From: Bradyrhizobium sp. NP1
Lineage (GTDB): Bacteria; Pseudomonadota; Alphaproteobacteria; Rhizobiales; Xanthobacteraceae
Assembly (NCBI RefSeq): GCF_030378205.1
Contig: NZ_CP127385.1
Span: 5,124,001 to 5,188,000, forward strand
DNA length: 64,000 bases
Direction: 5' to 3'
Positions 21,616 through 39,394 of the stretch are shown here, piece by piece. How positions within the stretch are numbered: the first letter of the stretch is position 1; each line of letters starts with the position of its first letter. Below the pieces are notes generated by a model. That model saw only the letters and a program-made list of their open reading frames with translations. It searched no databases and was not told the DNA's origin. The translations under genes and the position numbers were made by a program.

Positions 21616-21702
21616 GCGGACGTGGCGGAACTGGTAGACGCAAGGGACTTAAAATCCCTCGATGGCAACGTCGTGTGGGTTCGAGTCCCACCGCCCGCAC
21701 CA
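21616..21702 (+). tRNA. tRNA-Leu (anticodon TAA)
   Basis: An 87-nt gene with encoded CCA. The acceptor 5' strand is GCGGACG, the D arm is typical of Leu, the anticodon stem AGGGA/TCCCT encloses a loop with TAA, a long variable arm follows (class II) and the T arm is GTGGG-TTCGAGT-CCCAC. The 3' acceptor strand is CGCCCGC, which leaves an A-C mismatch at pair 5-68. The last 19 nt are duplicated at 39376-39394, marking the attachment site of the integrated element. Confidence 0.95.
21684..21702 (+). other. attL: attL core (19 bp, in tRNA-Leu 3' end)
   Basis: AGTCCCACCGCCCGCACCA forms the 3' side of the T stem, the acceptor strand and CCA of tRNA-Leu. It is identical to the copy at 39376-39394. 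Integration restores an intact tRNA gene on this side, as is usual for tyrosine integrases that use tRNA genes. Confidence 0.9.
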
Positions 21703-21752
21703 GCATAAATTTTCAAACAATATCATATACTTCGCTTGGTATTGTCAGGTTG

Positions 21753-21788
21753 TTTTGTAGCATGAAAGTGGACACGATTTTGTAGCAT
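21753..21788 (+). repeat. Left-end pair of TTTTGTAGCAT sites
   Basis: TTTTGTAGCAT occurs at 21753-21763 and again at 21778-21788, with GTGGACACGA between them. The same motif occurs in the same orientation at 39293-39303 and, as TTTTGTAGCA, at 39360-39369 inside the right end. Their position next to the att cores suggests arm-type integrase sites or excisionase sites. This is inference from position and repetition. Confidence 0.65.
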
Positions 21789-21996
21789 CTGAAACATCTG
21801 TCGCACGACTAATATTGTAGTTGTAACAATGACTTATGTATAAAAACAGTTGCAGCAGTCTTTTTTCTGATTCATACTGGTTGGCGTGAACGATCTCTTC
21901 GCGCCTTCGCGCGCTGAAGACTCTTCTCAAGCAACAGCGGGGAACCACCAACAACGCGGCTGCAATCCGGCAGCCACGGCAGCCCCCTTTTGTTTG

Positions 21997-23244
21997 ATGG
22001 CACAGTTCAGTTCGAAGTTCAGACAGCTACTCGGTATCGAAAAGAAGGCCAGCCTCGCCGCGCCCGACGCATTCCTGCTCGACCTGTTCGGCGCAACGGG
22101 CACCAACGCCGGAATTCAGGTATCGCCGCGCACGGCCATGCGCTGCGCGCCCGTCCATTGCGCTGTCCGCACGATCGCTGAAGCCATCGGCCAGCTTCCA
22201 GTTGCCGTCTACAAGCGCGGAACCAACGGCGAGAAAGAGCCCGCGCCTGATCACCCTGTTCAGCGCCTGCTACAGGACGCGGCGAATAGCTTCACCCCAG
22301 CCGGTCAATTCCGCGAAGACGTCACACAAGACGCTGCGCTGTATCCGTATGGCGGCTTCGCCCATATCGGGCGCGCCTCCGACGGCCGCGTCGTGGAGCT
22401 TGTGCGGATCGACCCGGAACAATCGAGCATCATCATCGACTACGTGAACCTTGAGCCGATTTACGCTTATCGGCAGGTAAGCAACGGCACCGGCAACGTC
22501 ACGACGCAACGGGTCGATGCCGAAAACATCCTCCATATCCCCTCCCCGTCATTGCAACGGCTAGGAATGGTCAACGAGGCGCGCGAAGCCATCGCGCTCG
22601 CCGTCGTCCTTGAGCAACATGCGGCGCGCCTGTTCGGCAATTCCGCGCGGCCTAGCGGCGTCCTCAGCTTGAAGCGTAACGGCACCAACGCCACTACGCT
22701 GGACAACATCAAGGCCATCTGGAACGCCGCGCACGGAAGCGGCAAGAGCGGCGGCACGGCGATCCTGCCCGACGATGTTAGTTGGCAGCAAGTCGTTCTC
22801 AATTCAGTCGATGCACAGTTCCACGAAATGCGCCGCTTCGCGATTGCGGAGATCGCGCGTTTCTGGCGCGTGCCGCTCCACATGATGAGCGAGCTTGAGC
22901 GCGCGACCTTCAAGAATGCCGAGCAACTTGGCTCCGAATTCTTGACCTACACTTTGCTGCCGTGGATTCGGCGCTGGGAAGGCGAACTGAATTTGAAGCT
23001 CTTCACCGAGGAAGAGCGTGGCACCTACTCCGTCGAATTCGACACCGACGCCATCATTCGCGCCGACATGCTCGCACGCATCGAGTCACTTTCGGTCGCT
23101 GTTAGCTCGCGCATCCTCAATCCAAATGAGGCGCGCCGGATGGGCTTTGGCCTCCCCGGCTACAAGGGCGGCGAGGAATACGTCAACCCGAACACGACCA
23201 GCCCGCACGCTCAACCGCGTCTTATTGGAGGTGTCAACCCATGA
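21997..23244 (+). CDS. Phage portal protein, HK97 family
   Basis: A 415-residue portal protein that forms the dodecameric ring through which DNA enters the capsid. Recognisable segments are PRTAMRCAPVHCAVRTIAEA, IGQLPVAVYKR, LLQDAANSFTPAGQF, WNAAHGSGKSGGTAILPD and a C-terminal ILNPNEARRMGFGLPGY that is characteristic of HK97-type portals. I prefer the ATG at 21997; an in-frame GTG at 21886 adds 37 residues of no portal character, and neither has a strong ribosome site. It is the first gene of the structural block, with no terminase before it. Its stop overlaps the next start as ATGA. Confidence 0.92.
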   Translation: MAQFSSKFRQLLGIEKKASLAAPDAFLLDLFGATGTNAGIQVSPRTAMRCAPVHCAVRTIAEAIGQLPVAVYKRGTNGEKEPAPDHPVQRLLQDAANSFTPAGQFREDVTQDAALYPYGGFAHIGRASDGRVVELVRIDPEQSSIIIDYVNLEPIYAYRQVSNGTGNVTTQRVDAENILHIPSPSLQRLGMVNEAREAIALAVVLEQHAARLFGNSARPSGVLSLKRNGTNATTLDNIKAIWNAAHGSGKSGGTAILPDDVSWQQVVLNSVDAQFHEMRRFAIAEIARFWRVPLHMMSELERATFKNAEQLGSEFLTYTLLPWIRRWEGELNLKLFTEEERGTYSVEFDTDAIIRADMLARIESLSVAVSSRILNPNEARRMGFGLPGYKGGEEYVNPNTTSPHAQPRLIGGVNP

Positions 23245-23930
23245 TGCGGACAGTTCACTTACATGGCGCGCTGGGCGAACAGTTTGGCGACAAGCACCGC
23301 TTCGACATCATGACCGCAGCGGAAGCACTGCGCGCAATGAACTGCGCGTTCCCCGGAAAATTCGTCAAAGCGCTCGAAGGCAACGCCTATCGCCTGGTGC
23401 GCGGCGATCCCGACACCGGCATGGACCTCGATCTTGAGCTTATCAATCAGTTCAAGCTTGGCTCTGAGCCTGATCTTCACCTGATCCCGATCGCACATGG
23501 CTCGATGAATGGCCGAACTGCCAAGGGCACGACCAAGGTTGTGCTTGGCGGCGCGCTGATCGGTAGCGCGATCTTCCTCTCTGGCGGCACGCTGGCCGCG
23601 CCGCTCTCCATTGCCGGCATGAGCATTCCCGGACTGACCTATGGGACCGTTGCCGCCGTTGGTCTTGGTCTGGCGCTCTCCGGCGTATCGACCTTGCTGA
23701 CGAAACCGCAAGAACAAGCAGCCTCAAACAACACCAGTGTTGCGGGCGCTCCGAACGTTCAAACCGGCCAGCAGGGCAGCGCCATTCCGTTGGTCTATGG
23801 CGAGGTGTTAGCACCAGGTATTCCAGTCTCGCTCTCGTCAGACACCGAAGACATCAGCGTCTATGCCAACTCGGCTGGATCAATCGAAGCTGCCTTTGGT
23901 CGCGACCCATCCTATTGGAGCGGGTCATGA
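23241..23930 (+). CDS. Lambda tail-assembly protein I-like
   Basis: A 229-residue protein. The N-terminus (VHLHGALGEQFGDKHRFDI, then AAEALRAMNCAFPGKF) matches the ubiquitin-like N-terminal part of lambda tail-tip protein I. A hydrophobic Gly/Ala-rich stretch follows at about 95-155 and then GAPNVQTGQQGSAIPLVYGEV, also typical of family members. In lambda this protein is needed for assembly of the tail tip and sits late in the tail operon. Here it directly follows the portal gene with an ATGA overlap, an unusual position. Confidence 0.83.
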   Translation: MMRTVHLHGALGEQFGDKHRFDIMTAAEALRAMNCAFPGKFVKALEGNAYRLVRGDPDTGMDLDLELINQFKLGSEPDLHLIPIAHGSMNGRTAKGTTKVVLGGALIGSAIFLSGGTLAAPLSIAGMSIPGLTYGTVAAVGLGLALSGVSTLLTKPQEQAASNNTSVAGAPNVQTGQQGSAIPLVYGEVLAPGIPVSLSSDTEDISVYANSAGSIEAAFGRDPSYWSGS

Positions 23931-24253
23931 AGCCGTTCTCCGCATTCTTTGGAGATGCCGAATATCAATTCATGCTCACCTTCGCTCTCGCGGGCGAACT
24001 TGAACAAAAGTGCGGCGCGGGCATCGGCACGATTTGCGCCCGCGTGTTCGCCAAGCACTTCGCTCAATCCGACATCACCGAAACCATTCGCTTGGCGCTG
24101 ATCGGCGGCGGCATGGCACCCAAGCGAGCGGCCGAACTGGTCGCGCTCTACGCGACCGATCGCCCCCTTTCTGAAAGCTATCCCCTCGTCGCGAAGATTC
24201 TCGAACGGCGTTGGTTCGGCAACCCACATGAGACGACCAATGGACAAGCTTGA
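23927..24253 (+). CDS. GTA-type tail assembly chaperone (Phage_TAC_11-like), copy 1
   Basis: A 108-residue protein with the pattern of the gene-transfer-agent family protein: FGDAEYQFMLTFALAGELEQ, KCGAGIGTICARVF, then IRLALIGGGMAPKRAAELV and LVAKILERRWFG. In RcGTA and related siphophages such proteins lie between the tail tube and tape measure genes and are thought to act as tail assembly chaperones. Here it lies between a tail-tip gene and the protease gene. It overlaps the previous gene (ATGA) and the next by 14 nt. A second, diverged member lies at 31491-31841. Confidence 0.78.
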   Translation: MKPFSAFFGDAEYQFMLTFALAGELEQKCGAGIGTICARVFAKHFAQSDITETIRLALIGGGMAPKRAAELVALYATDRPLSESYPLVAKILERRWFGNPHETTNGQA

Positions 24254-24731
24254 GATCAAGGCAACGCTCGGTGTCACCGATGCGGGCGAAATCATCGGCA
24301 CAGCATGGCCGTTCGGCTCGCCCGATAGCGTCGGCGACATCATCGTCAAAGGTGCGTTCGGATCGATCGCGCCGGATATGCCGATGCTGTTCAAGCATAG
24401 CCCATCCGACCTGATCGGTACTTGGACCGAGATCGCAGAAACGCCCGATGGCCTTGTCGTCAAAGGCAAGATGCACATGGAGCAGCCCCGCGCGCGATCC
24501 GTGCTTTCCATGATCAAGAGCGGCCTCGTTGATGGCCTATCGATCGGCTTCAAGACGCTCGCCGCAACCCGGCAGGGTCGCAACCGCGTGATCACTGCGG
24601 TTGATCTCAAAGAAACAAGCATCGTTCCCAATCCAGCCCATCCCAAGGCGCGCATCATCAGCGCCAAGGCGAATGATTCCGCTCTCGCCGTCGCGGAACT
24701 CATCAATCGTTTCGCGGCGGCTCTCACCTAA
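24240..24731 (+). CDS. Prohead maturation protease, HK97 family
   Basis: A 163-residue serine protease of the U35/HK97 prohead type that trims the capsid protein during maturation. It shows GTAWPFGSPDSVGDIIVKGAF, then MLFKHSP with the catalytic His, and DGLSIGF with the catalytic Ser; the VDLKETSIVPNPAHPKA segment is diagnostic. Length agrees with the family. The start MDKLEIKATL at 24240 lies inside the preceding gene. It is followed after 10 bp by the capsid gene, the normal protease-capsid order. Confidence 0.93.
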   Translation: MDKLEIKATLGVTDAGEIIGTAWPFGSPDSVGDIIVKGAFGSIAPDMPMLFKHSPSDLIGTWTEIAETPDGLVVKGKMHMEQPRARSVLSMIKSGLVDGLSIGFKTLAATRQGRNRVITAVDLKETSIVPNPAHPKARIISAKANDSALAVAELINRFAAALT

Positions 24732-24741
24732 CCCAGAGGTA

Positions 24742-25887
24742 ATGACTACCACCATGACGAAGCACTTCCCGGAAATCGAATTCAAGTCGGCGGATGACGA
24801 CACCGATCCGACCGCACTTGTCACCAAGGCGTTGGACGATCTCAAAGCGAAGATCGACACCAAGTCCGCCGATGACGCCAAGCTGAAAACCCGGATGGAT
24901 CAGCTTGAGGCCAAGATGAACCGCGCCGGTCACAGCGCGACCGCCAACGACCAGACAGAGCTTGAGCGCAAGTCGTTCGATGCGTTCTTGCGTGGCGGAC
25001 CGGACAAGTTGAGCGATCTTGAGCAGAAGTCGCTGGCTGTGACCGGCAACACCGCCCTGACGCCCCCGGAGTTCGGTAAGGAAGTCTTGAAGCTTTTGCG
25101 CCTCTTCTCGCCGATCCGCCAGTATGCGCGAGTCGTCACCATCGGCGCGGCCAATGTTCAGTATCCGCGCCGCACGGGTAGCACCGCTGCCGTGTGGGTC
25201 AACGATACCGACGATCGGACCGAGAGCGAACCGTCCTATCAGGGCGTCAGCATCACGCCCTATGAGTTGGCGACCTACACCGACGTTTCCAACCAGCTTC
25301 TCGAAGATAACTTCTACAACCTTGAGGGCGAACTGGCCTCTGATCTGGGCGAGAGCTTTGGCATTGCTGAAGGCACCGGCTTCGTGAAGGGCACCGGCAG
25401 CAACCAGCCGAAAGGCCTGATGAGCGCCACCGGCATCGCCCAGATGATTACCGGCGCGGCCAGCGGCTTCCCGACGACCAACCCGGCCGACGTGCTCATT
25501 GCCATGTTCCACAAGCTCCCGGCCGTTCACGCCCAAAACGGCGTGTGGGTAATGAACCGAAACACGTTGGGCGCAATCCGCCAGTTCAAGGACGGCATGG
25601 GCCGCTATCTGGTGCTTGATGCCCTTGCCGAAGGCGCACCGGTCACGTTGCTCGGTCGCCCGATCGTTGAGGCCGTCGATATGGACGATATCGGAGCGGG
25701 CAACTTCCCGATCCTGTTCGGAGACTTGCAGGGATACCGCATCGTCGATCGCGTCAACTTCATGCTTCTGCGTGACCCGTATTCGATCGCAACCAAGGGC
25801 CAGACCCGCTTCCACGCCCGCAAGCGCGTCGGCGGCGACGTCACCCATCCCGATCGGTTCGTCAAGCTCAAGGTCTCGGCGACCTAA
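24742..25887 (+). CDS. HK97-type major capsid protein
   Basis: A 381-residue capsid protein. Residues 1-90 are charged and coiled-coil-like (DDLKAKIDTKSADDAKLKTR, MDQLEAKMNR), as expected for the scaffolding delta domain removed by the prohead protease. The shell domain follows: TPPEFGKEVLKLLRLFSPIR, VQYPRRTGSTAAVWVNDTD, TDVSNQLLEDNFYNLEGEL, GFVKGTGSNQPKGLMSA, GVWVMNRNTLGAIRQFKD and LRDPYSIATKGQTRFHARKR. The ATG at 24742 follows AGAGG. Confidence 0.95.
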   Translation: MTTTMTKHFPEIEFKSADDDTDPTALVTKALDDLKAKIDTKSADDAKLKTRMDQLEAKMNRAGHSATANDQTELERKSFDAFLRGGPDKLSDLEQKSLAVTGNTALTPPEFGKEVLKLLRLFSPIRQYARVVTIGAANVQYPRRTGSTAAVWVNDTDDRTESEPSYQGVSITPYELATYTDVSNQLLEDNFYNLEGELASDLGESFGIAEGTGFVKGTGSNQPKGLMSATGIAQMITGAASGFPTTNPADVLIAMFHKLPAVHAQNGVWVMNRNTLGAIRQFKDGMGRYLVLDALAEGAPVTLLGRPIVEAVDMDDIGAGNFPILFGDLQGYRIVDRVNFMLLRDPYSIATKGQTRFHARKRVGGDVTHPDRFVKLKVSAT

Positions 25888-25899: not shown

Positions 25900-26478
25900 A
25901 TGCAGCTCGCAGCGGAACGATTTTATCTCAAGCTAGGTAGCGAGGTTTTCACCTTGCGGCCGACGCTGCGGGCTGCCTTCTTTCTCAACCAGAAATACGA
26001 CGGCTTCCATAACCTTTCGCGTTACATCGCCGAGGGTAGCCTTACGACAGCATCCGACCTGATCACCGAGACTGTCACCGAAAAGGCAGCTTGGGCTTCC
26101 TATGCTCTGACGGATAATTCAATCGTGCTGGACCTTATGGCGGCGCGCGATCAGCTTCTCGAATTCGTTCTGATCTTGATGGGCGCCAAGCAGCCTGATC
26201 ATGCGCCGGCTGACGCCAAGCCGATCACTTTCGAGGAATACCATACCAAGCTCTACCAGATCGCCACGGGCTGGCTTGGTTGGACCCCAGTCGTCGCGTG
26301 GGATGCGACACCGGCAGAGATCATCAACGCCCATCAAGGCCGCCTTGAAATGCTCAAGGCGATCTTCGGCGGCAGACGTGATGACACCGAAACAATCGAC
26401 GTGAAAGACGCGGACGCCCGCGCTGAACTGAATGCGCTCGGCGACCTGAGCGTCACCACAATGAGTGGGGTGCGCTGA
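25900..26478 (+). CDS. Phage protein, possibly tail assembly chaperone
   Basis: A 192-residue protein. The first part (FYLKLGSEVFTLRPTLRAAFFL, then YDGFHNLSRYIAEGSL) resembles tail tube-adjacent chaperones, with a short strand pair followed by a helix that reads a position in the genome. The later DATPAEIINAHQGRLEMLKAIFGG resembles the C-terminal extension seen in some chaperone-like proteins (PAEF-A). No confident family call is possible. It lies 12 bp after the capsid gene, and its stop overlaps the HNH gene start. Confidence 0.6.
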   Translation: MQLAAERFYLKLGSEVFTLRPTLRAAFFLNQKYDGFHNLSRYIAEGSLTTASDLITETVTEKAAWASYALTDNSIVLDLMAARDQLLEFVLILMGAKQPDHAPADAKPITFEEYHTKLYQIATGWLGWTPVVAWDATPAEIINAHQGRLEMLKAIFGGRRDDTETIDVKDADARAELNALGDLSVTTMSGVR

Positions 26479-26825
26479 TGCCACTCAAAGCAGCCCGCGT
26501 ATGTGGATGCGGCAGAGTCGTTCCTTCGAACGTCATTTGTCTTTGCCAACGTCGTCGTAAGGCAGAGAACGACAAGCGTAGACCTTCGGCTCACCAACGC
26601 GGCTACGATTCGAAGTGGAAACGTGAGAGCAAGGCGTTCCTGGCCCTGCCTCAGAACCGGTTCTGTGCTTGTGGGTGCGGTCGCATCGCTGACGTGGTCG
26701 ACCACAAGGTTCCCCATCGCGGCGATATGAAGCTCTTTTGGGACCGTTCCAACTGGCAACCGCTGGCTAGTTCGCCCTGCCATTCGTCCCGCAAGCAATC
26801 ACTGGAACGCCAGCGCCATGGCTAA
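26478..26825 (+). CDS. HNH endonuclease
   Basis: A 115-residue HNH protein. Two CxCG motifs (residues 9-12 and near 70) bracket a basic segment (RRRKAENDKRRPSAHQRGYDSKWKRES). The catalytic core reads VVDHKVPHRGD, NWQPL and CHSSRKQ, the H, N and H of the motif. Phage HNH proteins next to head genes often take part in DNA packaging with terminase. Here the gene lies 2.3 kb before the terminase genes. Its start overlaps the previous stop (TGATG) and its end overlaps the next gene by 8 nt. Confidence 0.85.
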   Translation: MPLKAARVCGCGRVVPSNVICLCQRRRKAENDKRRPSAHQRGYDSKWKRESKAFLALPQNRFCACGCGRIADVVDHKVPHRGDMKLFWDRSNWQPLASSPCHSSRKQSLERQRHG

Positions 26826-27303
26826 ACCAGAACAAGCCCTTTGGCGCGCCGTGATCGACCAAGCCATTACCGATGCTTCCGGTAAGATGAAGTGCAAGGA
26901 ATTTGATCGCGCTCAAGCTCTTGATTGGCTGCTCAAGCCCAATCGCAACTTCAATGAAGTATGCGCTCTCGCCGATCTTGAGCCTGACCATGTTCGTGCC
27001 GCAGCGCGCAAAGCGATTGAGAAATACCGCTCAAAATCGCCACGCAAGCACAGCGGAGCGAAGCTCTACGAGTTCAACGGTCGCACGCTCAACATCCAAG
27101 GATGGGTGAATGAGATCGGCTGTAGCTACTCATCTCTTTATGCCCGCCTTGTGATCCTAGGCTGGACGATAGAAGCCGCTGTTACGACGCCCTTCATGGT
27201 CAAGCGTCGATCGACCAAGGCAACAGCACCCCCGGGGGTGGGTAGCGAGCCTTCAAAAAGCGGCGGCGACCGGTCCATCCCCTCCGCACAAGATAGCGCC
27301 TAA
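26818..27303 (+). CDS. Putative DNA-binding phage protein with NUMOD-like HTH
   Basis: A 161-residue protein. The N-terminal half (PEQALWRAVIDQAITDASG, FNEVCALADLEPDHVRAAA) is a helical module of a type found in rhizobial phage proteins. The second half (YEFNGRTLNIQGWVNEIGCS, then SSLYARLVILGWTIEAAV) resembles the helix-turn-helix that accompanies HNH endonucleases. The C-terminus is Ser/Gly/Lys-rich. It overlaps the HNH gene by 8 nt, so the two may work together at DNA. Exact role unknown. Confidence 0.62.
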   Translation: MAKPEQALWRAVIDQAITDASGKMKCKEFDRAQALDWLLKPNRNFNEVCALADLEPDHVRAAARKAIEKYRSKSPRKHSGAKLYEFNGRTLNIQGWVNEIGCSYSSLYARLVILGWTIEAAVTTPFMVKRRSTKATAPPGVGSEPSKSGGDRSIPSAQDSA

Positions 27304-27317: not shown

Positions 27318-27599
27318 ATGATCACCCTCGATCAAGCCAAGGCCCATTTGAACGTCACCACGACGTTTGATGACGACCTGATCACCGACAAACTCGCCGC
27401 TGCGAAGGGCTGGGTTACTGACTACACGGGCGCATCGGTCGATTTGGACACCACTCCGGCCCCTGTTCGGGAAGCCGTGCTGCAATTGACGGCCCAGCTT
27501 TACGACAATCGGGAGATCACTGCGTCCGGCATCACGGCGCAGTCCCTGCCGTTCGGTTTCCTCGATTTGCTCGTCAATTACCGCGCTTACAGCTTCTAA
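27318..27599 (+). CDS. Phage head-tail connector protein (gp6-like)
   Basis: A 93-residue protein with the start typical of HK97 gp6-like connectors: MITLDQAKAHLNVTTTFDDD, then ITDKLAAAKGWVTDYTG and VREAVLQLTAQLYDNRE, ending GFLDLLVNYRAY. It would form a ring under the portal. A ribosome site GGAG lies just upstream (27304). Followed immediately by the DUF3168 gene. Confidence 0.88.
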   Translation: MITLDQAKAHLNVTTTFDDDLITDKLAAAKGWVTDYTGASVDLDTTPAPVREAVLQLTAQLYDNREITASGITAQSLPFGFLDLLVNYRAYSF

Positions 27600-28353: not shown

Positions 28354-29079
28354 TCAGCCGAAACTGCTGACTTGATCTCTCAGATTGGTCAATTGAATTT
28401 CACGTCGCTGAATCTCGGAAGCGAGATCGCTGATGATACGACGGGTCTCTTCGAGAGCCACACGAACTTCGTCGCTCAAATCTTGGAAGCTCAGCTTTCC
28501 TTCCTTCTCTCGAGCCTCAACGTTTTCCGCGAGGGTTCGTATTCGCCATGTTTGCTTGAGGATACGGCGGCCAAAGTCTCCGGGCGCAGTAGAGGCCGAT
28601 TCGCTGACATAAACGTGCGCTCGCTGATGAAGCTGCCGAAGCCGTTCAGCGAACATGTAGTTCGCGTAATCGGCGTCCGACGGATTGGGAAAATGGGCGG
28701 TAAGCGCGTTGAGATACTCGTTGGCGTCTTTCAATATCCTGAGTTCGTCTGCCGCTGCATTAAGGCGCTCCTCCGCCCTCAACTTCTCTGTCGCTCGCAG
28801 TTGCTGGTTCGTGCTGCGGATTTGATCCTGCGCTCCGGTGTAGGCCAACCATGCTGCAAGTATAGCGCCAGCAAACCCAATCAACCCTCCCGCCAAGTTT
28901 TCGTGCGCGGCCATGACGCATCCAATCGATTTTGGGAGTTGTGCGCTTCGAACCGTTTGGAAGCACCGATCACCGCTGATGTTTCGCGCGTATGTGTGGG
29001 CAAATGCGAGAACCCCTGCAACTACGAGCAACAGCGAGGCTGCGACGACGAAAAACATAAGCCATCGGGGAATCTTCAT
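28354..29079 (-). CDS. Antisense membrane-anchored coiled-coil protein (moron candidate)
   Basis: A 241-residue protein on the strand opposite to the structural genes. It has two predicted membrane helices (about residues 6-27, WLMFFVVAASLLLVVAGVLAF, and 62-82, LAGGLIGFAGAILAAWLAYTG). A long helical region follows (IRSTNQQLRATEKLRAEERL and later VEAREKEGKLSFQDLSDEVR, EETRRIISDLASEIQRREIQ). The loop between the helices has two cysteines. The opposite strand is also open but reads like its antisense. It sits between the head closure and terminase genes and would be transcribed from its own promoter. It may be a lysogenic conversion or exclusion gene; function unknown. Confidence 0.75.
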   Translation of the reverse strand: MKIPRWLMFFVVAASLLLVVAGVLAFAHTYARNISGDRCFQTVRSAQLPKSIGCVMAAHENLAGGLIGFAGAILAAWLAYTGAQDQIRSTNQQLRATEKLRAEERLNAAADELRILKDANEYLNALTAHFPNPSDADYANYMFAERLRQLHQRAHVYVSESASTAPGDFGRRILKQTWRIRTLAENVEAREKEGKLSFQDLSDEVRVALEETRRIISDLASEIQRREIQLTNLRDQVSSFG

Positions 29080-31842: not shown

Positions 31843-34077
31843 ATGGCTGCCCTCAATATCCCGGTCAGGGTCGACCTAGAGCAGTTGAAACAAGGCCTCA
31901 AGGACACGACCTCCCTGACTCAAACGGCTACGCGGCAGATCGCAAAGCAATTCCTAGACATAAACAAGGAACTCGCGAAAGACGCTCTGTTTGGAAGCAT
32001 GGCGCGCGGCGCTCTTACTCTCGCCAGCAATGTCGCCATCGCGGTTGGCTCAATCAAGCTGATCTCGGCGGCGATCTCCGGCGCGCGTGAGCAGATGGCA
32101 CAAATGGTCGCCATAGCGGACAAGGCGCAAAATCTCGGTGTGTCGCCCGCCTTCCTGCAAGCCTTCACCGCCGAGGCGAAGAAATTGAAGGTTGAAGCCA
32201 GCGAACTCGAATCGGCGCTTGAGCATGCGTTTCAGGCGACCAAGGAAGTCTCGCCGATCGACATCAACGAATGGGAGACGGGCAAAGAGAAGATCACGGA
32301 CGTAGAGAAGGCCTTGCGCGTCTATAACGAGACGCTTGCCAAGGCCGCCGGCCAACGCCTTGAGGGCTTGGTGTTGTTCCGGGTCGCCAAGACACAGGAA
32401 GAAAAGATTCAGGCCGTCCTAAAGGCCATGATCCAGCTTCAAAGCATCGGCCAGCAAGCCGCTTCGTTCGATCTCGGCGAACGGATGTTCGGATCGCAGA
32501 TAGTTGACCGCATGCGGCAGGGCAGAACATCGGCCGAAAGCATGCTGGAGACGATCAAAAGCGCCAGCGCTAATGCTGACGGCATCTTTTCCGACGTGCT
32601 GGTGAACCGCGCGAAGGAATTGGACGAGCAATTGAAGCTCGCCCATCAGCGCCTTTCGACCGCGCTCAAGCCCTCATGGGATGACCTCGCGTCGGTCCTT
32701 CTGACCATCAAGGGCTATTGGGCTGATACGGTAGACCTGATCGCCAAAGCCGTGGAATGGTCCAACAAGATCAAAATTCCCGGATTCACCAGTTCAACCG
32801 ATCTAGAGGCGAAGCGCGACGCGCTCGCGACGGTCAACAACAAGCTCAACGGCGGCTGGGGCATGTATGGCATGTTTGCCTCGCGTGAGACCCTAGAAGG
32901 GCAGCGCGATCGCCTCCAATCGGAAATTGCCGCGCTGGCACAGGGCGAGCAGTATGGCCCAGCCGCCCCCGGTCAATCGCGCGGGACCGGTCCGGCACCG
33001 ACCAAGAAGCCAACCGGAACGGAAACGGACCGGCTGGAAACGTCCGCCGACACCATCGCCAAGCGCGCTGCGGCCTTGCAGGCTGAAGCCGCTGCCATTG
33101 ACGAAGGAACGGCCGCGCGCGAGCGCAGCAAGATTGTCGCCCAGCTTGAGACTGTCGCCAAGCAGGCCAATGCTGCGGCTGGCAAGGGCGAGAACGTCGT
33201 CACGGAAGATCAGCGTAAACGTATCGACGAAGTTGCGGACGCCTACTCCAAGGCCGCCGAGTCTATCCAAAAGGCCCGCATCGCGTCGGACATCAAATTC
33301 GGGCAGAAGACGGCCCTGCTAGATCCTGCCGACGTGGCGATCGCCCAGCAATTGCGCGAGATCTATCCCAACGTCGCGGACGCGCTCAATTCGGTCGAGG
33401 CGCAAGCCATCCGGACCAACGACGCCATGCGGAGTATTTCAAGCACCGCCTCCAGCACGCTGACAAGCGGGCTTGCCAACATTCTCGACGGCACGAGATC
33501 GGTATCGCAGGGCTTTGCCGATATGTCGCGGGCGATCGTGCGCGCCCTCGAAGAGGCCATGATCAAGATGCTGATCGTGCAACCCCTGATGCGTTCGTTG
33601 GGTGGCGCTCTGGGATTCAGTGATGGCGGGATCGTTGGGAGCGGCAGCGCCCCGTCTACGGTCATGGTGGGCAATTACGCCATGCCGAAATTCGCAACCG
33701 GCGGCGTGGTCAGCGGACCGGGCGGCCCCCGCGATGACCGTATCCCCGCCCTGCTCTCTGACGGCGAATACGTGGTCAATGCGGGCGCCACGGCCAAGCA
33801 CCGCGCCTTGCTTGAGGCGATCAACCGAGGCGTTCCCCGGTTCGCGGATGGCGGCTCTGTCGGGGACGGCACCTTATCGGCACCGCTCTTTGCGGGCCAG
33901 CAAACGACCATCGCCCCAACTTTCCACGTCAACGTCCAGGGATCGCCCGGGATGACGAAGCAGGATCATCAGCGCATGGGGGAAACGATCGCAAAGACGG
34001 CCAACGCCCAGATACAGAGCATGATTGCTGCCGAAATCCGCATGCAGACACGTCCCGGCGGTATCCTGAAACGCTAA
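31843..34077 (+). CDS. Tail tape measure protein
   Basis: A 744-residue protein. A helical N-terminus (TSLTQTATRQIAKQFLDINK) is followed by a hydrophobic segment near residues 55-75 (LASNVAIAVGSIKLISAAIS), then long Ala/Glu/Lys-rich helices. The C-terminal Gly-rich region (SDGGIVGSGSAPSTVMVGNY, GVVSGPGGPRDDRIPALLSD, GEYVVNAGATAKHR) is typical of tape measure proteins. At about 0.15 nm per residue the length suggests a tail near 110 nm if one is built. No tail tube gene is seen. It is the last recognisable virion gene. Confidence 0.9.
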   Translation: MAALNIPVRVDLEQLKQGLKDTTSLTQTATRQIAKQFLDINKELAKDALFGSMARGALTLASNVAIAVGSIKLISAAISGAREQMAQMVAIADKAQNLGVSPAFLQAFTAEAKKLKVEASELESALEHAFQATKEVSPIDINEWETGKEKITDVEKALRVYNETLAKAAGQRLEGLVLFRVAKTQEEKIQAVLKAMIQLQSIGQQAASFDLGERMFGSQIVDRMRQGRTSAESMLETIKSASANADGIFSDVLVNRAKELDEQLKLAHQRLSTALKPSWDDLASVLLTIKGYWADTVDLIAKAVEWSNKIKIPGFTSSTDLEAKRDALATVNNKLNGGWGMYGMFASRETLEGQRDRLQSEIAALAQGEQYGPAAPGQSRGTGPAPTKKPTGTETDRLETSADTIAKRAAALQAEAAAIDEGTAARERSKIVAQLETVAKQANAAAGKGENVVTEDQRKRIDEVADAYSKAAESIQKARIASDIKFGQKTALLDPADVAIAQQLREIYPNVADALNSVEAQAIRTNDAMRSISSTASSTLTSGLANILDGTRSVSQGFADMSRAIVRALEEAMIKMLIVQPLMRSLGGALGFSDGGIVGSGSAPSTVMVGNYAMPKFATGGVVSGPGGPRDDRIPALLSDGEYVVNAGATAKHRALLEAINRGVPRFADGGSVGDGTLSAPLFAGQQTTIAPTFHVNVQGSPGMTKQDHQRMGETIAKTANAQIQSMIAAEIRMQTRPGGILKR

Positions 34078-34161: not shown

Positions 34162-34180
34162 CTTGAAGGAGTATCCGAAC

Positions 34181-35272
34181 TTGCCGTTACGAAAGCCCGA
34201 ACACCAACAATATAGCACGAATCCGGAATCCGACGAAGATCGGCACGAAGATTTTTCGGATGACGATCTCACGGTGGACGATCTCGACGGCGGCACCGAC
34301 GACGCGGGTGTCATTGAGGCCCTAACCGCGCCCGACGAAGATGAGGCGGCGGTCCAATCCAGTGATCAGGAGCCTGTCTATCTCGGGCGCTCGTATGTCA
34401 GTCGCGGCGGCAACGACAACGGCATTGATGAAATGCTGGCCCAGCTCGACGGTGGAGAGGGGTCGAAATTTGTTTCGGAGGCCGACGAAAAACCGTCGAA
34501 AAATGTTTCAGCTCCTGCGTCGAAAACTGTTTCAGAGCCCGGAGGGCGGCCGTCGAAAATTGTTTCAGAGAACAAGCGTCGATCGCTCGCAAATGATAAG
34601 AAAACGGTCGCAAAAATGCGGAGTTTTTGTCTTAGCGACGTATCGGCTGCCCCTACATCTTCAGTTAGCTATCCAGCTTCTTCATCTCTTCCTTCCACCA
34701 CCACCGCACCTAAACCAGCAAACGACAACAACCGCATACCAGTCTGGTCTCTCACCGGAGAGCTTGTTACGGCGGTTTGCGCTTGTGCGGCCCTACAGAT
34801 CGACGACAACCCGGCTATTGCGTTCACTTTCAATCTGACGCCGGACGCGATCGAGAGAGCCAAGCGCGATCCTGACGGCTTCCTAGACCCGCTAAAGCGT
34901 TCTTTTGATCAGAGCCTTAAAAGGGCTGGCGTCGTCCTTCCCTATTTCTTCGCTGTTGATATTGATGAAGACGAGCGCCCGCATCTGCACGGGGCCTTCC
35001 GCTATCCGGCCCGGGAGGTATCCATCACCATGGTCCGCCGTATCAGAGAGATCATGAAGGATAGTTGGGGCGCATGGACCGGTCCGGGGAAGCACAAGCA
35101 ACTTCTGTTCAAAACGCTCTATAGCGACGATTGGGCCACATACTGCCTCAAGAACGGTAAGGCAGTTCAGAAGATCATCGGCCCTCGAACTTTCACCATT
35201 ACGCACGCGCTCGGAAGAGAAGCGAAGTGGTTCTACAATGAATTTCGGCGAATCCTGAAGGGGACAGATTAA
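34181..35272 (+). CDS. Candidate HUH rolling-circle replication initiator (TTG start)
   Basis: About 363 residues from TTG 34181, which has AAGGAG 9 nt upstream. The C-terminal half carries in order motif 1 FTFNLTP (about 215), motif 2 RPHLHGAF with the HxH metal ligands (268-270) and motif 3 WATYCLKN with Tyr-x-x-Lys (321/324). This is the arrangement of single-tyrosine HUH Rep endonucleases, which nick an origin and start rolling-circle replication. The first ~190 residues are acidic and low-complexity, with four imperfect SKxVS(E) units near residues 95-130. A relaxase-type or transposase-type HUH role cannot be excluded. Tailed-phage elements rarely carry such a gene beside the tape measure gene. 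Confidence 0.65.
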   Translation: MPLRKPEHQQYSTNPESDEDRHEDFSDDDLTVDDLDGGTDDAGVIEALTAPDEDEAAVQSSDQEPVYLGRSYVSRGGNDNGIDEMLAQLDGGEGSKFVSEADEKPSKNVSAPASKTVSEPGGRPSKIVSENKRRSLANDKKTVAKMRSFCLSDVSAAPTSSVSYPASSSLPSTTTAPKPANDNNRIPVWSLTGELVTAVCACAALQIDDNPAIAFTFNLTPDAIERAKRDPDGFLDPLKRSFDQSLKRAGVVLPYFFAVDIDEDERPHLHGAFRYPAREVSITMVRRIREIMKDSWGAWTGPGKHKQLLFKTLYSDDWATYCLKNGKAVQKIIGPRTFTITHALGREAKWFYNEFRRILKGTD

Positions 35273-35273
35273 G

Positions 35274-35483
35274 ATGACTTGCACGCAACAGCAGTTGGAC
35301 GCGGCTCGCGCTCAGGGCATTGCCGAAGCTCTCGGCGAAGTCGAGAAGGAGCTACGACGAGCCAGCAGGGAGGTTGAGCTTGCGCGCAAGCCAAAGAGCA
35401 CCTTCGCTTCCAGCAATCGCGATCGAGCCATCTTGCGCCTCAACGTCCTTAAGAAAGTCGCGGGGTGCCTGCGGGCGCTATAA
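35274..35483 (+). CDS. Small helical protein of unknown function
   Basis: A 69-residue hydrophilic protein starting one base after the Rep-like stop. It appears all-helical (QQLDAARAQGIAEALGEVEK, ELRRASREVELARK) with a basic C-terminal segment (RAILRLNVLKKVAGCLRAL). Its spacing suggests translational coupling to the Rep-like gene. The size and charge would suit a regulator or accessory replication factor, but no motif supports this. Confidence 0.55.
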   Translation: MTCTQQQLDAARAQGIAEALGEVEKELRRASREVELARKPKSTFASSNRDRAILRLNVLKKVAGCLRAL

Positions 35484-35540: not shown

Positions 35541-35762
35541 ATGAATCTCTATAGCCCTCTGCATCACCAATTGGGGCTGACCATGCAACGACCTGATCAC
35601 TTTATCCCGGATGACCAACTTACCCGGGCCGCGAACGCCATTGCCAACCTAGAGCCGTGCCCGTTCAAAGGGCGGCTTACTGCCGATCAGGTGATCCGGG
35701 CGCTGGGCGAATTCGGCGACATCTGGCCCGCCTCGATCGAGAAGCTGATTGAGCGCGGCTGA
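35541..35762 (+). CDS. Small phage protein of unknown function
   Basis: A 73-residue protein, or 59 residues if it starts at the ATG 35583 (MQRPDHFIPDD). Content: FIPDDQLTRAANAIANLEPC, PFKGRLTADQVIRALGEFGD, then SIEKLIERG; soluble and helical. The stop TGA overlaps the ATG of the lipoprotein gene (TGATG). No family recognised. Confidence 0.5.
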   Translation: MNLYSPLHHQLGLTMQRPDHFIPDDQLTRAANAIANLEPCPFKGRLTADQVIRALGEFGDIWPASIEKLIERG

Positions 35763-35995
35763 TGCGCCAGTTAGTCTGGTTGTTGGGCACGGCCCTCTTA
35801 TCGGGCTGCGTTGCCAGCGTAGGCAAGTATGAGCCGCCGGTAGTCGATATGACTGGCGTTGATCAGAAGCGCTACGCCCAAGACCTCAACGAATGCACCT
35901 TGAAGAAGGAGCAAGCTTCATTCGTTGGCTCTGCTCAAATGATCTCCAATTGCATCGAGGAGCACGGTTATCGTGTCATTGAGAAGCGGGGCTAG
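35762..35995 (+). CDS. Element-encoded small lipoprotein
   Basis: A 77-residue protein with a short signal (RQLVWLLGTALLSGC) whose lipobox LLSGC puts the lipidated Cys at residue 16. The mature part (VASVGKYEPPVVDMTGVDQK, RYAQDLNECTLKKEQ) has two further cysteines (ECTL, SNCIEE). It is not proline-rich like Rz1-type outer spanins, and no inner spanin gene is next to it. A surface-exclusion role is possible but unproven. It overlaps the next gene's start by one base. Confidence 0.65.
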   Translation: MRQLVWLLGTALLSGCVASVGKYEPPVVDMTGVDQKRYAQDLNECTLKKEQASFVGSAQMISNCIEEHGYRVIEKRG

Positions 35996-36720
35996 TGGTG
36001 AGCCAAACACTTAAAGACCTATTGGCCCTCGCAGGCGGCACAGCCGCAGTTTTGGCTGCAGTCGCCGGCTTCGCCTACTGGCTCTTCAAACAGTTCAGCG
36101 AGAAGTGGCTGACGGCCAAATTCAATGAGCGACTGGAAGACTACAAGCACCAGCAACAGAAGGAACTGGAAGAGCTACGATTCAAGATAAACTCTCTCAT
36201 GGACCGCACCACGAAGCTCTACCAGCGAGAATTCGACGCGCTTCCGGAAGCGTGGGGCAAGCTGGTTATGGCACATGGGACTGTGCAGGCCGTAGCGGCA
36301 GGCCTGCAACAATATCCCGATCTTGATCGCATGACGTCTGACCACCTCGACGAGTTTTTGGGCAAGAGCCCGCTCGACAATTGGCAGAAAGAAAAGATCA
36401 AGCGCGAAGGCAAAAAGACGGACGAATATATCAGCGCGATTAACCATCACCGGGCTTGGGAGGCGCGCAACGTCTACCGCGACTTCTACGTCTACTTCCG
36501 AAAGAATGGCGTCTTCATCAGAGAAGAGTTGAAAGCGAAGTTCGACGCGCTCTCTGATTTGATACACAGCACGCTCGTTGAGCACGAGGTAGGATTGCAG
36601 CACAAAGACTTTAGAAAGTGGGAGACAAGAGAGAAGTTCGTGACGGAAAGCACCGCGCTGCTAAAGGCGCTTGAGCAAGAAGTTCAAACGAGGCTATGGG
36701 ACTCGCAGAGTCTTTCTTAG
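35995..36720 (+). CDS. Membrane-anchored coiled-coil cargo protein (GTG start)
   Basis: About 241 residues. One N-terminal membrane helix (about 11-31, ALAGGTAAVLAAVAGFAYWL), then a charged coiled coil (FNERLEDYKHQQQKELEELR, FKINSLMDRTTKLYQREF) and a helical C-terminal domain containing DALPEAWGKLVMAHG. Two consecutive GTG codons (35995, 35998) are possible starts. I recall similar single-helix coiled-coil proteins from accessory regions, but no function is established. Its place between a lipoprotein and the integrase is typical of cargo. Confidence 0.65.
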   Translation: MVSQTLKDLLALAGGTAAVLAAVAGFAYWLFKQFSEKWLTAKFNERLEDYKHQQQKELEELRFKINSLMDRTTKLYQREFDALPEAWGKLVMAHGTVQAVAAGLQQYPDLDRMTSDHLDEFLGKSPLDNWQKEKIKREGKKTDEYISAINHHRAWEARNVYRDFYVYFRKNGVFIREELKAKFDALSDLIHSTLVEHEVGLQHKDFRKWETREKFVTESTALLKALEQEVQTRLWDSQSLS

Positions 36721-36801
36721 CGTCCCTGCCCAAGGCGAGAATCATCAATTTCAACAAATGGGTCTGTTGCGAAGCAATCGAACGGGCTGAACGGGGGGAT
36801 C

Positions 36802-37524
36802 ATGGAATATCGGCGAGAGAACCGTGTAGTGCTGAGCACGGAGCGTGAGCATAAAAGTCTCTATTCTTGGTCAATTAAGGAATTTGACAGGAATGGGAAA
36901 CAAATCGGCTCCGATCAAATTCCGTGGGAGTGGAGCTTAAGATTTGAAGTGATCGAGTTGACTCCCAATTGCACACTTAAGTTCAACAACGAGCAGGAGG
37001 ATCAACAAGCGGAAACCAGCAAGGCCGAAATCTCGGAATATCTCTATGGAAAGCTGCGTTCGTCGGAAAGGAGGAGAGAGGCAGGCAGCTATTCAATGTT
37101 CGGAACGAAGCGCACCATCAGTGAATTCGATCTATTTATTTACAAGGCAATGCAAGGTGAAGATCGGTGTCGCCTGTGGGGGAGTATTGGCTACACGGCA
37201 GAATGGGATTTCGAGGACGTAGCGCAACAGGATAGCGTCCAAATATACATCTACTTGTCGGCTGAAAGATATGAGCGCCTTCTGAAGTTCGTCACATTTC
37301 CGCGGCCGACGGGAGCAGAAGTTCGCTTGAAGGGAGTTTCGGGTTTCTATTCGGCGTGGTCACCGTCGATAAGAACTGACAGCATTAGGATTTTGGCGAA
37401 CGTGAAAGATCAAGGATTGGAAAACCCCGAGGGGCTGTCCTTTGATCCGCCCGTTTTGGGCCATGTGGAAGAGTTCGAACTTAGTATCAAGCAGCAATAT
37501 CCTCTTATTCTCAAAGAACGCTAG
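36802..37524 (+). CDS. Cargo protein of unknown function
   Basis: A 240-residue soluble protein with a good ribosome site (GGGGGGATC before ATG). It is strand-rich with many Tyr, Glu and Ser residues (NRVVLSTEREHKSLYSWSIK, FELSIKQQYPLILKER) and has no signal peptide, membrane helix or recognised catalytic motif. Base composition is lower in GC than the structural genes and the host genes, suggesting separate acquisition. It ends 3 bp from the convergent integrase stop. Confidence 0.65.
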   Translation: MEYRRENRVVLSTEREHKSLYSWSIKEFDRNGKQIGSDQIPWEWSLRFEVIELTPNCTLKFNNEQEDQQAETSKAEISEYLYGKLRSSERRREAGSYSMFGTKRTISEFDLFIYKAMQGEDRCRLWGSIGYTAEWDFEDVAQQDSVQIYIYLSAERYERLLKFVTFPRPTGAEVRLKGVSGFYSAWSPSIRTDSIRILANVKDQGLENPEGLSFDPPVLGHVEEFELSIKQQYPLILKER

Positions 37525-37526
37525 CT

Positions 37527-39293
37527 TTATAGGCTTGGAAAGCCGTCAAACCTCAGCTTCTCAATCGCTTCCTTCATCGCCTCAACTGGCTGTCCGTGTT
37601 CGTATCCCGCGCCAGCCGTTTGATCAGAGTGCCCGGCAAGCTGGTCGCGCATGTCCTTCGGAACGCCCGCCATCTTCAAGCCCGACTTGAACGTGTGTCG
37701 GAACGAGTGCCACGCCTTGCGGTCGTCAACGATGCCGACCTTCTTCAGATAGGTGACATTGAAGCGGCGCGGCAGGTAGCGCGGGAAATAGTGATCCAGC
37801 GTCGCCGTGTCTTTCGGAGCCTTCGCCTTCGCCTCCATTCCCTGCCGATACCAAACCGGGAATAGATACGTTTCGTGGCGCTTCCTCAGAGCGGCAACGT
37901 ATTTCTCAAAGCCCAGCGCGAGTAGGGTGCTGTGCACCGGCACCAGACGCTGCGATCCGATGTTTTTGGTTTCTTCCTCGATCGCGATCACCAGAACGCC
38001 ACGCTCGGTGCGGATGCTGTTGAGCTTAACCTGGGCCAACTCCGAGGCGCGCATCCCGCCGAACAGCGAGATCACCATCGCCCATTCGCGCTCGCCCCAC
38101 TTGCCCTTTGGCGCAAAGTGTTCGCCGAACAACCGCGTGAGATCGTCTGGCACGAAGTTCACGCGGGGCGGCTTCGAATCTTTGACGGCATCGACTTTGA
38201 TCCCGGCCGACGGATTGTCCGGGATGATATCTCCGCGCACGGCCCAATTCAGGAACGCATGCAGCCGGGCGAGATACTTGTCGTTGACGGTGCGCGCGTC
38301 CAAGAGCGGATACGGCTTCGCCCTCGCCTTGTTCGCCTTCACCGCCTCCGGCAGGGTCAAGCCGGGAAAGCGCTTGCTGTAGCTCGCCGGGGCATCTGCC
38401 AACATGCGCTTGAAGGCGTGGACGTGCTGGCGCGTCAGCCTGTAGATCGGCAGCGGCTCGCCGATCGTTTCCTCAAGCATGCGGATCGTGACGCGGTTGT
38501 CGTGCTTGGTCCGGTTGCTGGTCGCCTTCTCCGTCGCGAATTGCTCCACTAGCTCGCTCAGCGTCCGCTCACTGTCCGGCCCAAGAATTCGGAGGGTTAG
38601 CGGATCGGCGGGCGAAGCCGCCTTCTCTACCAGCAAGGGGTGTTCCGGTTTGGCAGAGAAGTCGCCCGCGTCGTGCGCCTGCTTTAGCCGCATTGCTTCT
38701 AGATGGACGGCCGCGAGCGCTCGCGCCAATTCCCGCCACTGAGGCGTGCCGAAAACAACATCGGTGTTTCCCTGCTCGCGATACCAGTCGATCGACCAGC
38801 CTATGAGCGCGTCGGCTTCCTCGTCCGAAATTAGGCCACTGATCAGCTCGCGGAGCTTGTTCGCGTAAAAGGGCCGCACCTCTTCGTTCTGGAAGCGAAT
38901 AGTTTCGGCGAACCGCGAGAGATCAGCCCGCCGCTCGGCGTCGTGCTTGGCAAGCTGGGCTTCGAAATGCGCCCTCGCGAGGTTGCCAAGGCTCAGGATG
39001 CGCCCTTTTCTCGGCGGAGGCGCCGAAGGCCTCTGCTCAGCGTCTAGCTGACCACGCGCCTCGCTAAGCCGTTCCTGCATGCGGGCGACAGCAGCGGGAA
39101 GGTTCCGCTTCGCAAGGGTCAGATCGGGGCCAAGCGGCTCGGTCAATTCCCGCTTGCCGATGATTGGGCGCAACGCTTCCGGGACCGCGACCCGCGCCCA
39201 ATAGCGACCTTTCCGAGGGAGCAAGTTTCTGATTTTGGCGAGCGCGTTCGAAGCCATGGTGGAGGGCAGTTTCCGAGAGTTTCTGGAAACCAT
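37527..39293 (-). CDS. Tyrosine site-specific integrase
   Basis: A 588-residue tyrosine recombinase (about 576 if it starts at the ATG 39257). The N-terminal arm-binding part (LPRKGRYWARVAVPEALRPI, GKRELTEPLG) and a long middle region precede the catalytic domain. It contains GMRASEL with the first Arg, HSFRHTF with the His-x-x-Arg pair, and GHSD followed by GYEHG with the nucleophilic Tyr near residue 564. It is larger than most phage integrases and of the DUF6538-type rhizobial kind. Its start region overlaps a TTTTGTAGCAT site, so binding there could repress its own promoter. It lies beside attR. Confidence 0.93.
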   Translation of the reverse strand: MVSRNSRKLPSTMASNALAKIRNLLPRKGRYWARVAVPEALRPIIGKRELTEPLGPDLTLAKRNLPAAVARMQERLSEARGQLDAEQRPSAPPPRKGRILSLGNLARAHFEAQLAKHDAERRADLSRFAETIRFQNEEVRPFYANKLRELISGLISDEEADALIGWSIDWYREQGNTDVVFGTPQWRELARALAAVHLEAMRLKQAHDAGDFSAKPEHPLLVEKAASPADPLTLRILGPDSERTLSELVEQFATEKATSNRTKHDNRVTIRMLEETIGEPLPIYRLTRQHVHAFKRMLADAPASYSKRFPGLTLPEAVKANKARAKPYPLLDARTVNDKYLARLHAFLNWAVRGDIIPDNPSAGIKVDAVKDSKPPRVNFVPDDLTRLFGEHFAPKGKWGEREWAMVISLFGGMRASELAQVKLNSIRTERGVLVIAIEEETKNIGSQRLVPVHSTLLALGFEKYVAALRKRHETYLFPVWYRQGMEAKAKAPKDTATLDHYFPRYLPRRFNVTYLKKVGIVDDRKAWHSFRHTFKSGLKMAGVPKDMRDQLAGHSDQTAGAGYEHGQPVEAMKEAIEKLRFDGFPSL

Positions 39294-39369
39294 TTTGTAG
39301 CATGGCTCTGGACACTATGCTGCTAGAATCACTTATGTTTTTGTGATTTCAAAAGAAAGTTTTGTAGCA
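39293..39369 (+). repeat. Right-end pair of TTTTGTAGCA sites
   Basis: TTTTGTAGCAT at 39293-39303 is followed by GGCTCTGGACACTAT, which parallels GAAAGTGGACACGAT after the left-end copy. A second TTTTGTAGCA at 39360-39369 ends 6 bp before the attR core. The sites are direct repeats of the pair at 21753-21788 and fit integrase or excisionase binding. Confidence 0.65.
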
Positions 39370-39375
39370 GGTTGC

Positions 39376-39394
39376 AGTCCCACCGCCCGCACCA
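39376..39394 (+). other. attR: attR core (19 bp)
   Basis: AGTCCCACCGCCCGCACCA, identical to the 3' end of tRNA-Leu at 21684-21702. The preceding bases (GGTTGC against GGTTCG) are partly similar. It is a tRNA 3' fragment, not a functional tRNA. Confidence 0.9.

Follow-up and report, generated by a model that had tools for sequence, protein, structure and literature searches.

A 17.7 kb element inserted in the tRNA-Leu(UAA) gene of Bradyrhizobium sp. NP1 encodes a phage head together with a partial set of tail genes, which raises the question of whether it is the remnant of a virus or a complete unit that lives on other phages. The element was analysed within a stretch of 64,000 nt of contig NZ_CP127385.1 (hereafter the window); the host genome, coded G000, comprises 7.71 Mb in one contig. 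We consider it likely that the element is a capsid-forming phage satellite of Hyphomicrobiales, which builds chimeric tails with its own ruler and chaperones on the tube and tip of a helper phage. This reading draws on what the genes encode and on their uninterrupted frames, on selection, on the boundaries of the element and an empty site that matches them, on a near-constant length, on circular plasmid relatives, and on the motifs and fold of a HUH-type replication initiator (Rep). The results suggest a complete-looking, selected satellite and not a broken virus.

Boundaries and integration site

The sharp boundaries proposed in the initial annotation were borne out by a 19-bp exact repeat that flanks the element, one copy lying in the tRNA gene, and by an integrase of the PF00589 family. 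The boundary features are as follows:

21616..21702, + strand: tRNA-Leu(TAA), the sole tRNA of the window (ARAGORN); integration target, its 3' end being the attL core
21684..21702: attL core, 19 bp exact repeat
21753..21787: two TTTTGTAGCA repeats near attL, putative integrase arm sites
37527..39293, - strand: tyrosine integrase, PF00589, with a DUF6538 N-terminus
39293..39369: two TTTTGTAGCA repeats near attR, putative integrase arm sites
39376..39394: attR core, 19 bp exact repeat

An Rfam scan of the window returned nothing beyond the tRNA-Leu. The 3' end of the tRNA is copied at 39370-39394, where 23 of 25 nt are identical and the 19-bp exact run is contained. The paired end motifs noted earlier are real, as TTTTGTAGCA occurs exactly four times in the 64 kb (21753, 21778, 39293 and 39360), always near the ends of the element, against 0.01 expected in shuffles. 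All called genes between the att copies are directed rightward, with the exception of the integrase and one cargo gene (28354-29079).

The integration site was compared across 98 genus genomes, own included. The joined flanks gave a contiguous match over the junction, like an empty site, in G694 and G691 (query 57-248, 83-85%; the matches do not reach the far left flank), and less complete matches in G684, G285, G709 and G692. The locus therefore presents what defines an integrative satellite element in general: an att-bounded discrete unit, an integrase and a matching empty site. Sequence resembling the right flank was found elsewhere in several of the 98 genomes, so that this flank is partly repetitive. 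At such sites, the sequence (window 39395-39500) sometimes adjoins a tRNA 3'-end match, and perhaps represents other att remnants or a dispersed repeat.

Head, packaging and neck genes

Genes for an HK97-type head, for packaging and for the neck lie close together in open frames. The intact and tightly packed head genes of the initial annotation were thus recovered, each with an identified family:

21886..23244, + strand: portal, PF04860 (E 8.9e-83); true start may be near 21997
24228..24731, + strand: prohead protease (S78), PF04586 (E 9.8e-21)
24601..25887, + strand: HK97 major capsid protein (MCP), PF05065 (E 3e-79); start probably near 24739
26478..26825, + strand: HNH endonuclease of the packaging module, phrog_589
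26818..27303, + strand: putative HNH-associated or DNA-binding protein, phrog_3377 (E 2.7e-6); variable among relatives
27318..27599, + strand: head-tail adaptor gp6, PF05135
27600..28016, + strand: tail terminator, gp17 family, PF11367
28013..28333, + strand: head closure protein (HCP), PF05521
29127..29504, + strand: terminase small subunit (TerS), PF05119, Terminase_4
29461..31110, + strand: terminase large subunit (TerL), PF03354 and PF20441
31004..31498, + strand: HK97-gp10 neck/tail completion protein, phrog_5 (E 1.9e-11); true start probably near 31105

In many relatives, a conserved protein of ~128-144 aa (phrog_5707; for example L122 4910-5320, and G050) directly follows the MCP. It was not found in the window and is perhaps a head decoration protein.

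A compact gene set in related genomes

Relatives were collected through the tape measure protein (TMP) and TerL. TMP matches at E<=1e-10 were present in 41 of 296 family genomes; nine of these (own included) matched at 41% or above over most of the length, and the remaining matches were weaker or partial. By gene content, G095 and G106 (L043) have the appearance of ordinary prophages. TerL matches at E<=1e-60 were present in 36 of 397 order genomes, 29 of them (own included) at 39% or above, and one TerL row (G370) has an internal stop. Seven loci were read from the TMP matches, G095 not counted, and a further 20 from the 31 TerL places at 39% or above outside the own genome.

The close relatives (G242, G237, G140, G050, G089 and L040) keep the order from portal to TMP, followed by a variable region and then the integrase; single genes can be missing, such as the gpI-like gene in G140, and three extra genes follow the portal in G089. 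The genes between TMP and integrase mostly differ between relatives, and no conserved large tip protein was seen in this region. In the initial annotation, it was reasoned that close relatives with about 20 kb more of tail, lysis and control genes would reveal a simple deletion. Instead, the att repeats of the close relatives enclose this same set, equally compact. Repeats of tRNA sequence, 15.9-19.4 kb apart, bound the element in 22 of 27 related loci, their targets being the tRNAs for Gln, Pro, Gly, Leu, Ser, Thr, Lys, Arg and Asn. Including the window, the mean element length is 17,743 bp (SD 695, n=23). Among the other loci, G305, G649 and G549a had no repeat, G628 was skipped for want of a portal call, and G549b, with a 55-bp repeat 11.0 kb apart, was left out of the size statistics.

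A TMP or TMP-sized open reading frame (ORF) was present in 21 of the 22 att-bounded relatives, while G409 had none. Two of the calls are weak (G465, a 163-aa match beside an 818-aa ORF, and G532, a 915-aa ORF ahead of the portal), and for G314, G504, G299, G434a and G434b, five PHROGs tape-measure members were assigned to the five large ORFs to which they probably correspond. In G089, which already holds one element, a second TMP (745 aa) forms part of another satellite-like locus (L186 and L187) running from portal to TMP. In L185 (13647-16364, S. meliloti Ak57 pSymB), the ORF in the tape-measure place is annotated as a D-Ala-D-Ala carboxypeptidase and labelled vanY by RGI at 30.7%, which is probably an annotation artefact.

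In IMG/VR, a TerL relative is encoded in 545 of 600 stretches among the matches listed, not all of which are satellites. The best 80 comprise 48 contigs of 14.0-20.9 kb, 27 shorter and 5 longer. A repeat pair near the ends, 16.3-18.5 kb apart and judged by the repeat alone, was found in 4 of 27 whole contigs.

Selection, module exchange and circular relatives

The small gene set had been described as selected and not decayed, and this view was upheld by the intact frames and by the ratio of nonsynonymous to synonymous substitution (dN/dS). The ratio was 0.04-0.46, hence below 0.5, for every estimable gene in five pairs, two of which include the window (simple NG86 estimates, some with dS near or at saturation). 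By gene, the values were 0.04-0.10 for TerL, 0.13-0.45 for TMP, 0.07-0.30 for three chaperones and 0.15 for gpI (one pair). Between L109 and G140, several structural genes are 97-99% identical and Rep and integrase 25-29%, which indicates that the integration and replication end has been swapped.

TerL relatives of 38-48% were also identified on circular plasmids. The Paracoccus marcusii plasmid NZ_CP157016.1 (circular, 17,494 bp) carries portal, tail assembly chaperone (TAC), MCP, a further chaperone, HNH, gp6, gp10, gp17, HCP, TerS and TerL, as well as a HUH Rep match (E 9e-15) and an 842-aa ORF in the tape-measure place that has no TMP profile match. Methylorubrum pB146-3 (16,127 bp) has head genes and a TMP match, with neither a chaperone nor a Rep match. 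Roseomonas pTT14-8 (16,883 bp, carrying IS21) was matched by head and packaging genes alone. M. populi pMPOP02 (23,392 bp) carries a Tn3-type insertion; a tube gene and an annotated tape measure are present, Rep is matched at E 4e-31, and TerL is split over two overlapping frames. The window integrase had no match on any of the four. Judged by their genes, these plasmids are relatives and not the window element itself; they show that a related gene set can form a circular unit of roughly the same size.

These results bear on the possibility that the element is a deletion remnant of an ordinary siphoprophage that has lost its tube, tip, lysis and control genes. Tube and tip are indeed missing, and parts of the TMP share 29-39% identity with its counterparts in prophages of ordinary appearance and in the Bradyrhizobium siphophage ppBdUSDA122-1. 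Against a remnant stand the compact size common to integrations in nine tRNA kinds, the gene order shared with close relatives, dN/dS values under 0.5 for the neck genes as well as TMP, TACs and gpI, and the circular plasmids. TerL is likewise only ~35% identical to GenBank phages (20 matches listed), with all 1,594 below 60%. A deletion remnant is therefore highly improbable, and it was rejected on the compact set of the relatives, the tRNA-bounded lengths and dN/dS.

Tail genes present and missing

The tail genes of the element are as follows:

23241..23930, + strand: lambda gpI-like tail assembly protein, phrog_32 (E 1.1e-30); the gpI name is taken from phage records
23927..24253, + strand: tail assembly chaperone TACa, PF11836 (E 1.9e-24)
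25900..26478, + strand: probable two-part, GT-like tail assembly chaperone; weak TAC_6 match at the C-terminus (E 0.007), helical model
31491..31841, + strand: tail assembly chaperone TACb, PF11836 (E 9.8e-13)
31843..34077, + strand: TMP, 744 aa, phrog_25241 (E 3.4e-24)

The best identity of the gpI-like protein is 45%, to Rhizobium phages, among the GenBank phage matches listed. The PF11836 proteins, which we take to be chaperones from the Pfam family name Phage_TAC_11 and gene order, were rejected as a tube despite the wording 'tail tube protein' used by Pfam and PHROGs for PF11836 and phrog_8985. The 25900-26478 protein is read with moderate confidence as a GT-like chaperone, its TAC_6 match (E 0.007) falling below Pfam's cut-off. 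Its predicted structure (mean pLDDT 79) consists of a short beta-hairpin followed by helices. In a viral fold search, the top four matches (E 2e-4 to 7e-4) were unnamed or uncharacterised; tail assembly proteins followed (E 0.002 and 0.007), then chaperones and N15 GT at E 0.07-0.12, and two low-ranked rows named tail tube at E 0.23. A Foldseek search of the PDB gave no match at E<0.1, and hhalign against TACa and TACb (probability 0.5) did not support a shared N-terminus. This protein was rejected as a hidden tail tube on its helical model and chaperone-type matches.

A tube gene occurs in some relatives. In the wider set, a tail tube profile gave matches at 21 loci, in one case within the MCP frame, and four of the proteins so identified have a match to phrog_158, a major tail protein family (E 8e-16 to 8e-24). 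The tube gene lies between MCP and the two-part chaperone in several relatives (L128, L170, L173 and G434b); in the window, this chaperone directly follows the MCP with no gene in between. The tube profile had no match at E<=10 in ORFs of at least 60 aa of the window or its close group, and a hidden tube in this group was rejected accordingly. Tube presence switches about nine times on a rapidly built TerL tree, which has open forks and serves this count alone; this indicates that the tail cassettes are mosaic. A second group (G155, G399, G409, G532 and G388) has a similar size and tRNA boundaries, with DnaB/primase and other integrase families among its ORFs; in G388, the TMP lies ahead of the portal.

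Among the called window genes, there was no accepted Pfam or PHROGs match to tail tube, tip, fibre, receptor-binding or lysis families, weak holin and Rz matches (E 0.008-0.11) having been set aside. These genes accordingly do not include the complete tip or receptor-binding and lysis genes of an autonomous temperate phage. The host genome has neither a PF13550 tip nor a phrog_158 tube match. The 'partial tail set' of the initial annotation thus stands as regards the chaperones, the gpI-like protein and the TMP; no tail tube is recognised in it, and its PF11836-type genes are read as chaperones. The description as a capsid-encoding satellite and not an ordinary prophage is supported by the compact set in relatives and by the lack of recognised tube, tip and lysis genes.

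Replication initiator and cargo

The remaining genes of the element are as follows:

28354..29079, - strand: cargo, membrane/coiled-coil-like as read from its sequence, at the HCP-TerS junction
34163..35272, + strand: HUH Rep, HxH 274-276, Y327xxK
35274..35483, + strand: small ORF, no assigned role
35541..35762, + strand: small protein recurrent in relatives, no assigned role
35762..35995, + strand: small lipoprotein-like protein recurrent in relatives, phrog_914 of unknown function (E 0.0017)
35995..36720, + strand: cargo, transmembrane and coiled-coil-like as read from its sequence; also in G050 (55%)
36802..37524, + strand: cargo, no assigned role

The HUH-type Rep had been put forward as a candidate and gains support here, as HxH (274-276) and Y327 are invariant across 18 aligned sequences and its fold matches are to HUH nucleases. 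No match to it was found among 50,697 phage records. The HCP-TerS junction looks like a cargo hotspot of these elements: homologs of the window minus-strand gene lie there in L040, L103, L105 and L116, and other ORFs occupy a gap there in L100, L101, L102 and L158. Three cargo genes of the window, and one of the small proteins that recur in relatives, had no PADLOC match. Some relatives carry anti-phage-type cargo (TIR, NsnA-like and GmrSD_N); TIR/ThsB- and NsnA-type-like proteins were located in L048 (3104-4195) and L066 (8329-10254), two of ten proteins scanned having matched.

Comparison with known systems

Known satellites are described below from excerpts of the cited papers. Capsid-forming phage-inducible chromosomal islands (cf-PICIs) encode their own MCP, protease, portal, connectors, TerS, TerL and HNH without a complete tail (PMC10690885, PMC10803314, PMC11389934), and the element encodes the same capsid and packaging gene classes. 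It differs from them in its length (~17.7 kb, the cf-PICI average being 14 kb; PMC10803314), in its HUH Rep, TACs, gpI-like protein and TMP, in lacking AlpA, in distant kin that partly add a tail tube, and in plasmid-borne relatives with no match to its integrase. Putative tmp genes are also mentioned for sampled cf-PICIs (PMC12987554, legend of Ext. Data Fig. 10b).

The Vibrio cholerae phage-inducible chromosomal island-like elements (PLEs) place TMP/BhuB in chimeric tails, encode a TAC, and are called the first satellite family known to use its own tail rulers in virions (PMC12987554, Nature 2026). Compared by gene content and description, the element resembles PLEs, which average 18 kb (PMC10803314), in its own TMP and tail assembly chaperone, with the tube and other tail parts expected from a helper. 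PLEs use ICP1 capsid proteins and contractile tails and have no capsid of their own, whereas the element has its own HK97 MCP and portal and siphophage-type tail genes. The Streptomyces satellites Mulch and Flayer likewise have their own capsid and packaging genes, and the MulchRoom tail is thought to be helper-derived; their helpers are virulent, and TMP or chaperones are not mentioned in the excerpt (PMC10690885). On this comparison, the best reading is that the element would work like cf-PICIs in its own capsid and like PLEs in its own TMP and chaperone.

The cf-PICIs were reportedly described by Alqurainy et al. in 2023. Gram-negative PICIs carry an AlpA-type regulator beside the integrase and a PICI-type primase replication module. 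PF05930 (AlpA) had no match in G000; across 17 genomes, it matched 14 times in 8 of them, never within the coordinates of the elements. The called window genes gave no primase match, DnaB/primase matches occurring only among ORFs of distant relatives. The element is therefore not filed as a PICI, having a HUH Rep instead. The proposal of a related but different type is partly right. The plan of a capsid plus borrowed tail is known from cf-PICIs, and a satellite TMP with chaperone from PLEs (PMC12987554).

The tail genes could also be decoys, in which case TMP, TACs and the gpI-like protein would poison helper tail assembly and the tail would be wholly helper-made, as in cf-PICIs. Three TACs would exceed the need of one tail, and blockers of tail assembly from satellites or other mobile elements are known (Tai, Rta; for Tai, PMC11364771). 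However, close relatives keep a full-length TMP along with TACs and terminator, and the PLE TMP is incorporated and its deletion lowers transduction (PMC12987554). We regard decoys as unlikely.

The chaperones, of the PF11836/GTA gp10 type, and the label 'gene transfer agent family protein' given to TACa in some records could instead point to a domesticated gene-transfer-agent-like cluster that packages host DNA. Agents of the RcGTA type have HK97 head genes and PF11836/PF09550-type chaperones, as does the element with its HK97 head genes and PF11836-type chaperones, but they have full tails and no integrase, and they package host DNA. An integrase, att repeats and a matching empty site, together with the plasmid relatives and the exchange of integrases, identify the element as mobile, and no tube or tip is recognised in it. 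A domesticated cluster is hardly credible.

Proposed cycle and possible helpers

In the satellite cycle we propose, helper infection or induction would lead to excision by the element's own integrase and replication through its own HUH Rep. Its own small HK97 procapsid would be built, unit-length DNA (~17.7 kb) packaged with its own TerS, TerL and HNH, and the head closed with its own neck. The chimeric siphovirus tail would contain the element's TMP, chaperones, gpI-like protein and terminator, with tube, tip, receptor-binding proteins and lysis supplied by a helper siphophage. If so, the injection ruler would be that of the satellite and the host range that of the helper.

The element TMP is related to that of ppBdUSDA122-1 (profile E 7e-61; 31.6% over residues 228-586). 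This phage, of 45.6 kb and with a tail of 125 nm, is produced spontaneously (PMC10127595). G237 and G155 also contain phage loci of ordinary appearance, in which related TMPs are followed by large ORFs. Phages of the ppBdUSDA122-1 type and these loci are candidate helpers, to be taken as leads and not as proof.

Several observations weigh against a satellite. Its way of life is read here from genes, from which induction, packaging, chimeric tails and helper dependence were inferred, and no repressor or known induction switch was recognised in the element. The host genome has no second PF04860 portal or PF05065 capsid, the single match of each lying inside the element. A helper would therefore have to enter from elsewhere or belong to a different type. 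Circular ends were seen in none of the 27 whole IMG/VR contigs checked, and IMG/VR hence gives no evidence of packaging. Tip or lysis proteins may be hidden among cargo of unassigned role. Scans of non-core ORFs (111, 59 and 99) returned mostly tape measures, integrases, chaperones, replication genes and cargo, but the 111 include 4 ORFs with an endolysin PHROG match and 2 with a match to a minor tail family, and one of the 59 group-2 ORFs matches a tail-fibre PHROG. PHROGs was used for all three sets and Pfam for the first alone; scans A2 and A3 covered ORFs of at least 100 aa, and A6 took 99 of 114 listed. As the PHROGs results are the best 25 of 68, 87 and 116 families, an absence of tip genes in relatives is not proven.

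These matches would also suit a self-sufficient minimal phage or phage-plasmid with unrecognised tip, receptor-binding and lysis proteins, as would the tube gene added in distant relatives. The smallest tailed phages are near 18 kb in size, close to that of the element. Against a minimal phage stand the mostly variable genes between TMP and integrase with no conserved large tip protein seen there, the distance of TerL from that of isolated phages, and the Rep with no match among the phage records. We judge it quite unlikely, and a satellite with its own head and tail ruler remains the preferred reading.

Significance

The chances are about even that the element belongs to a large undescribed alphaproteobacterial satellite family that outsources its virion in grades. 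All members would have a head, and a TMP is encoded by nearly all of the att-bounded members examined; some would have a tube and others none in the slot between capsid and chaperone, many would have a HUH Rep, and some would be plasmids, with the helper giving tube and tip or tip alone. No description of such an alphaproteobacterial or rhizobial family was found in the literature searched, with preprints and most subscription papers outside its scope. In the excerpts seen, satellite phage-plasmids in a glacial virome study were P4-like, and a Sinorhizobium LM21 prophage study contained nothing of this kind.

If the reading is true, the capsid-forming satellite plan would extend to rhizobia and other alphaproteobacteria, combined with satellite-encoded tail rulers. 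The relatives with and without a tube gene form a natural series for comparing virion composition. As such elements are present in IMG/VR as viruses and in PLSDB as plasmids, some counted viruses and plasmids are probably satellites.

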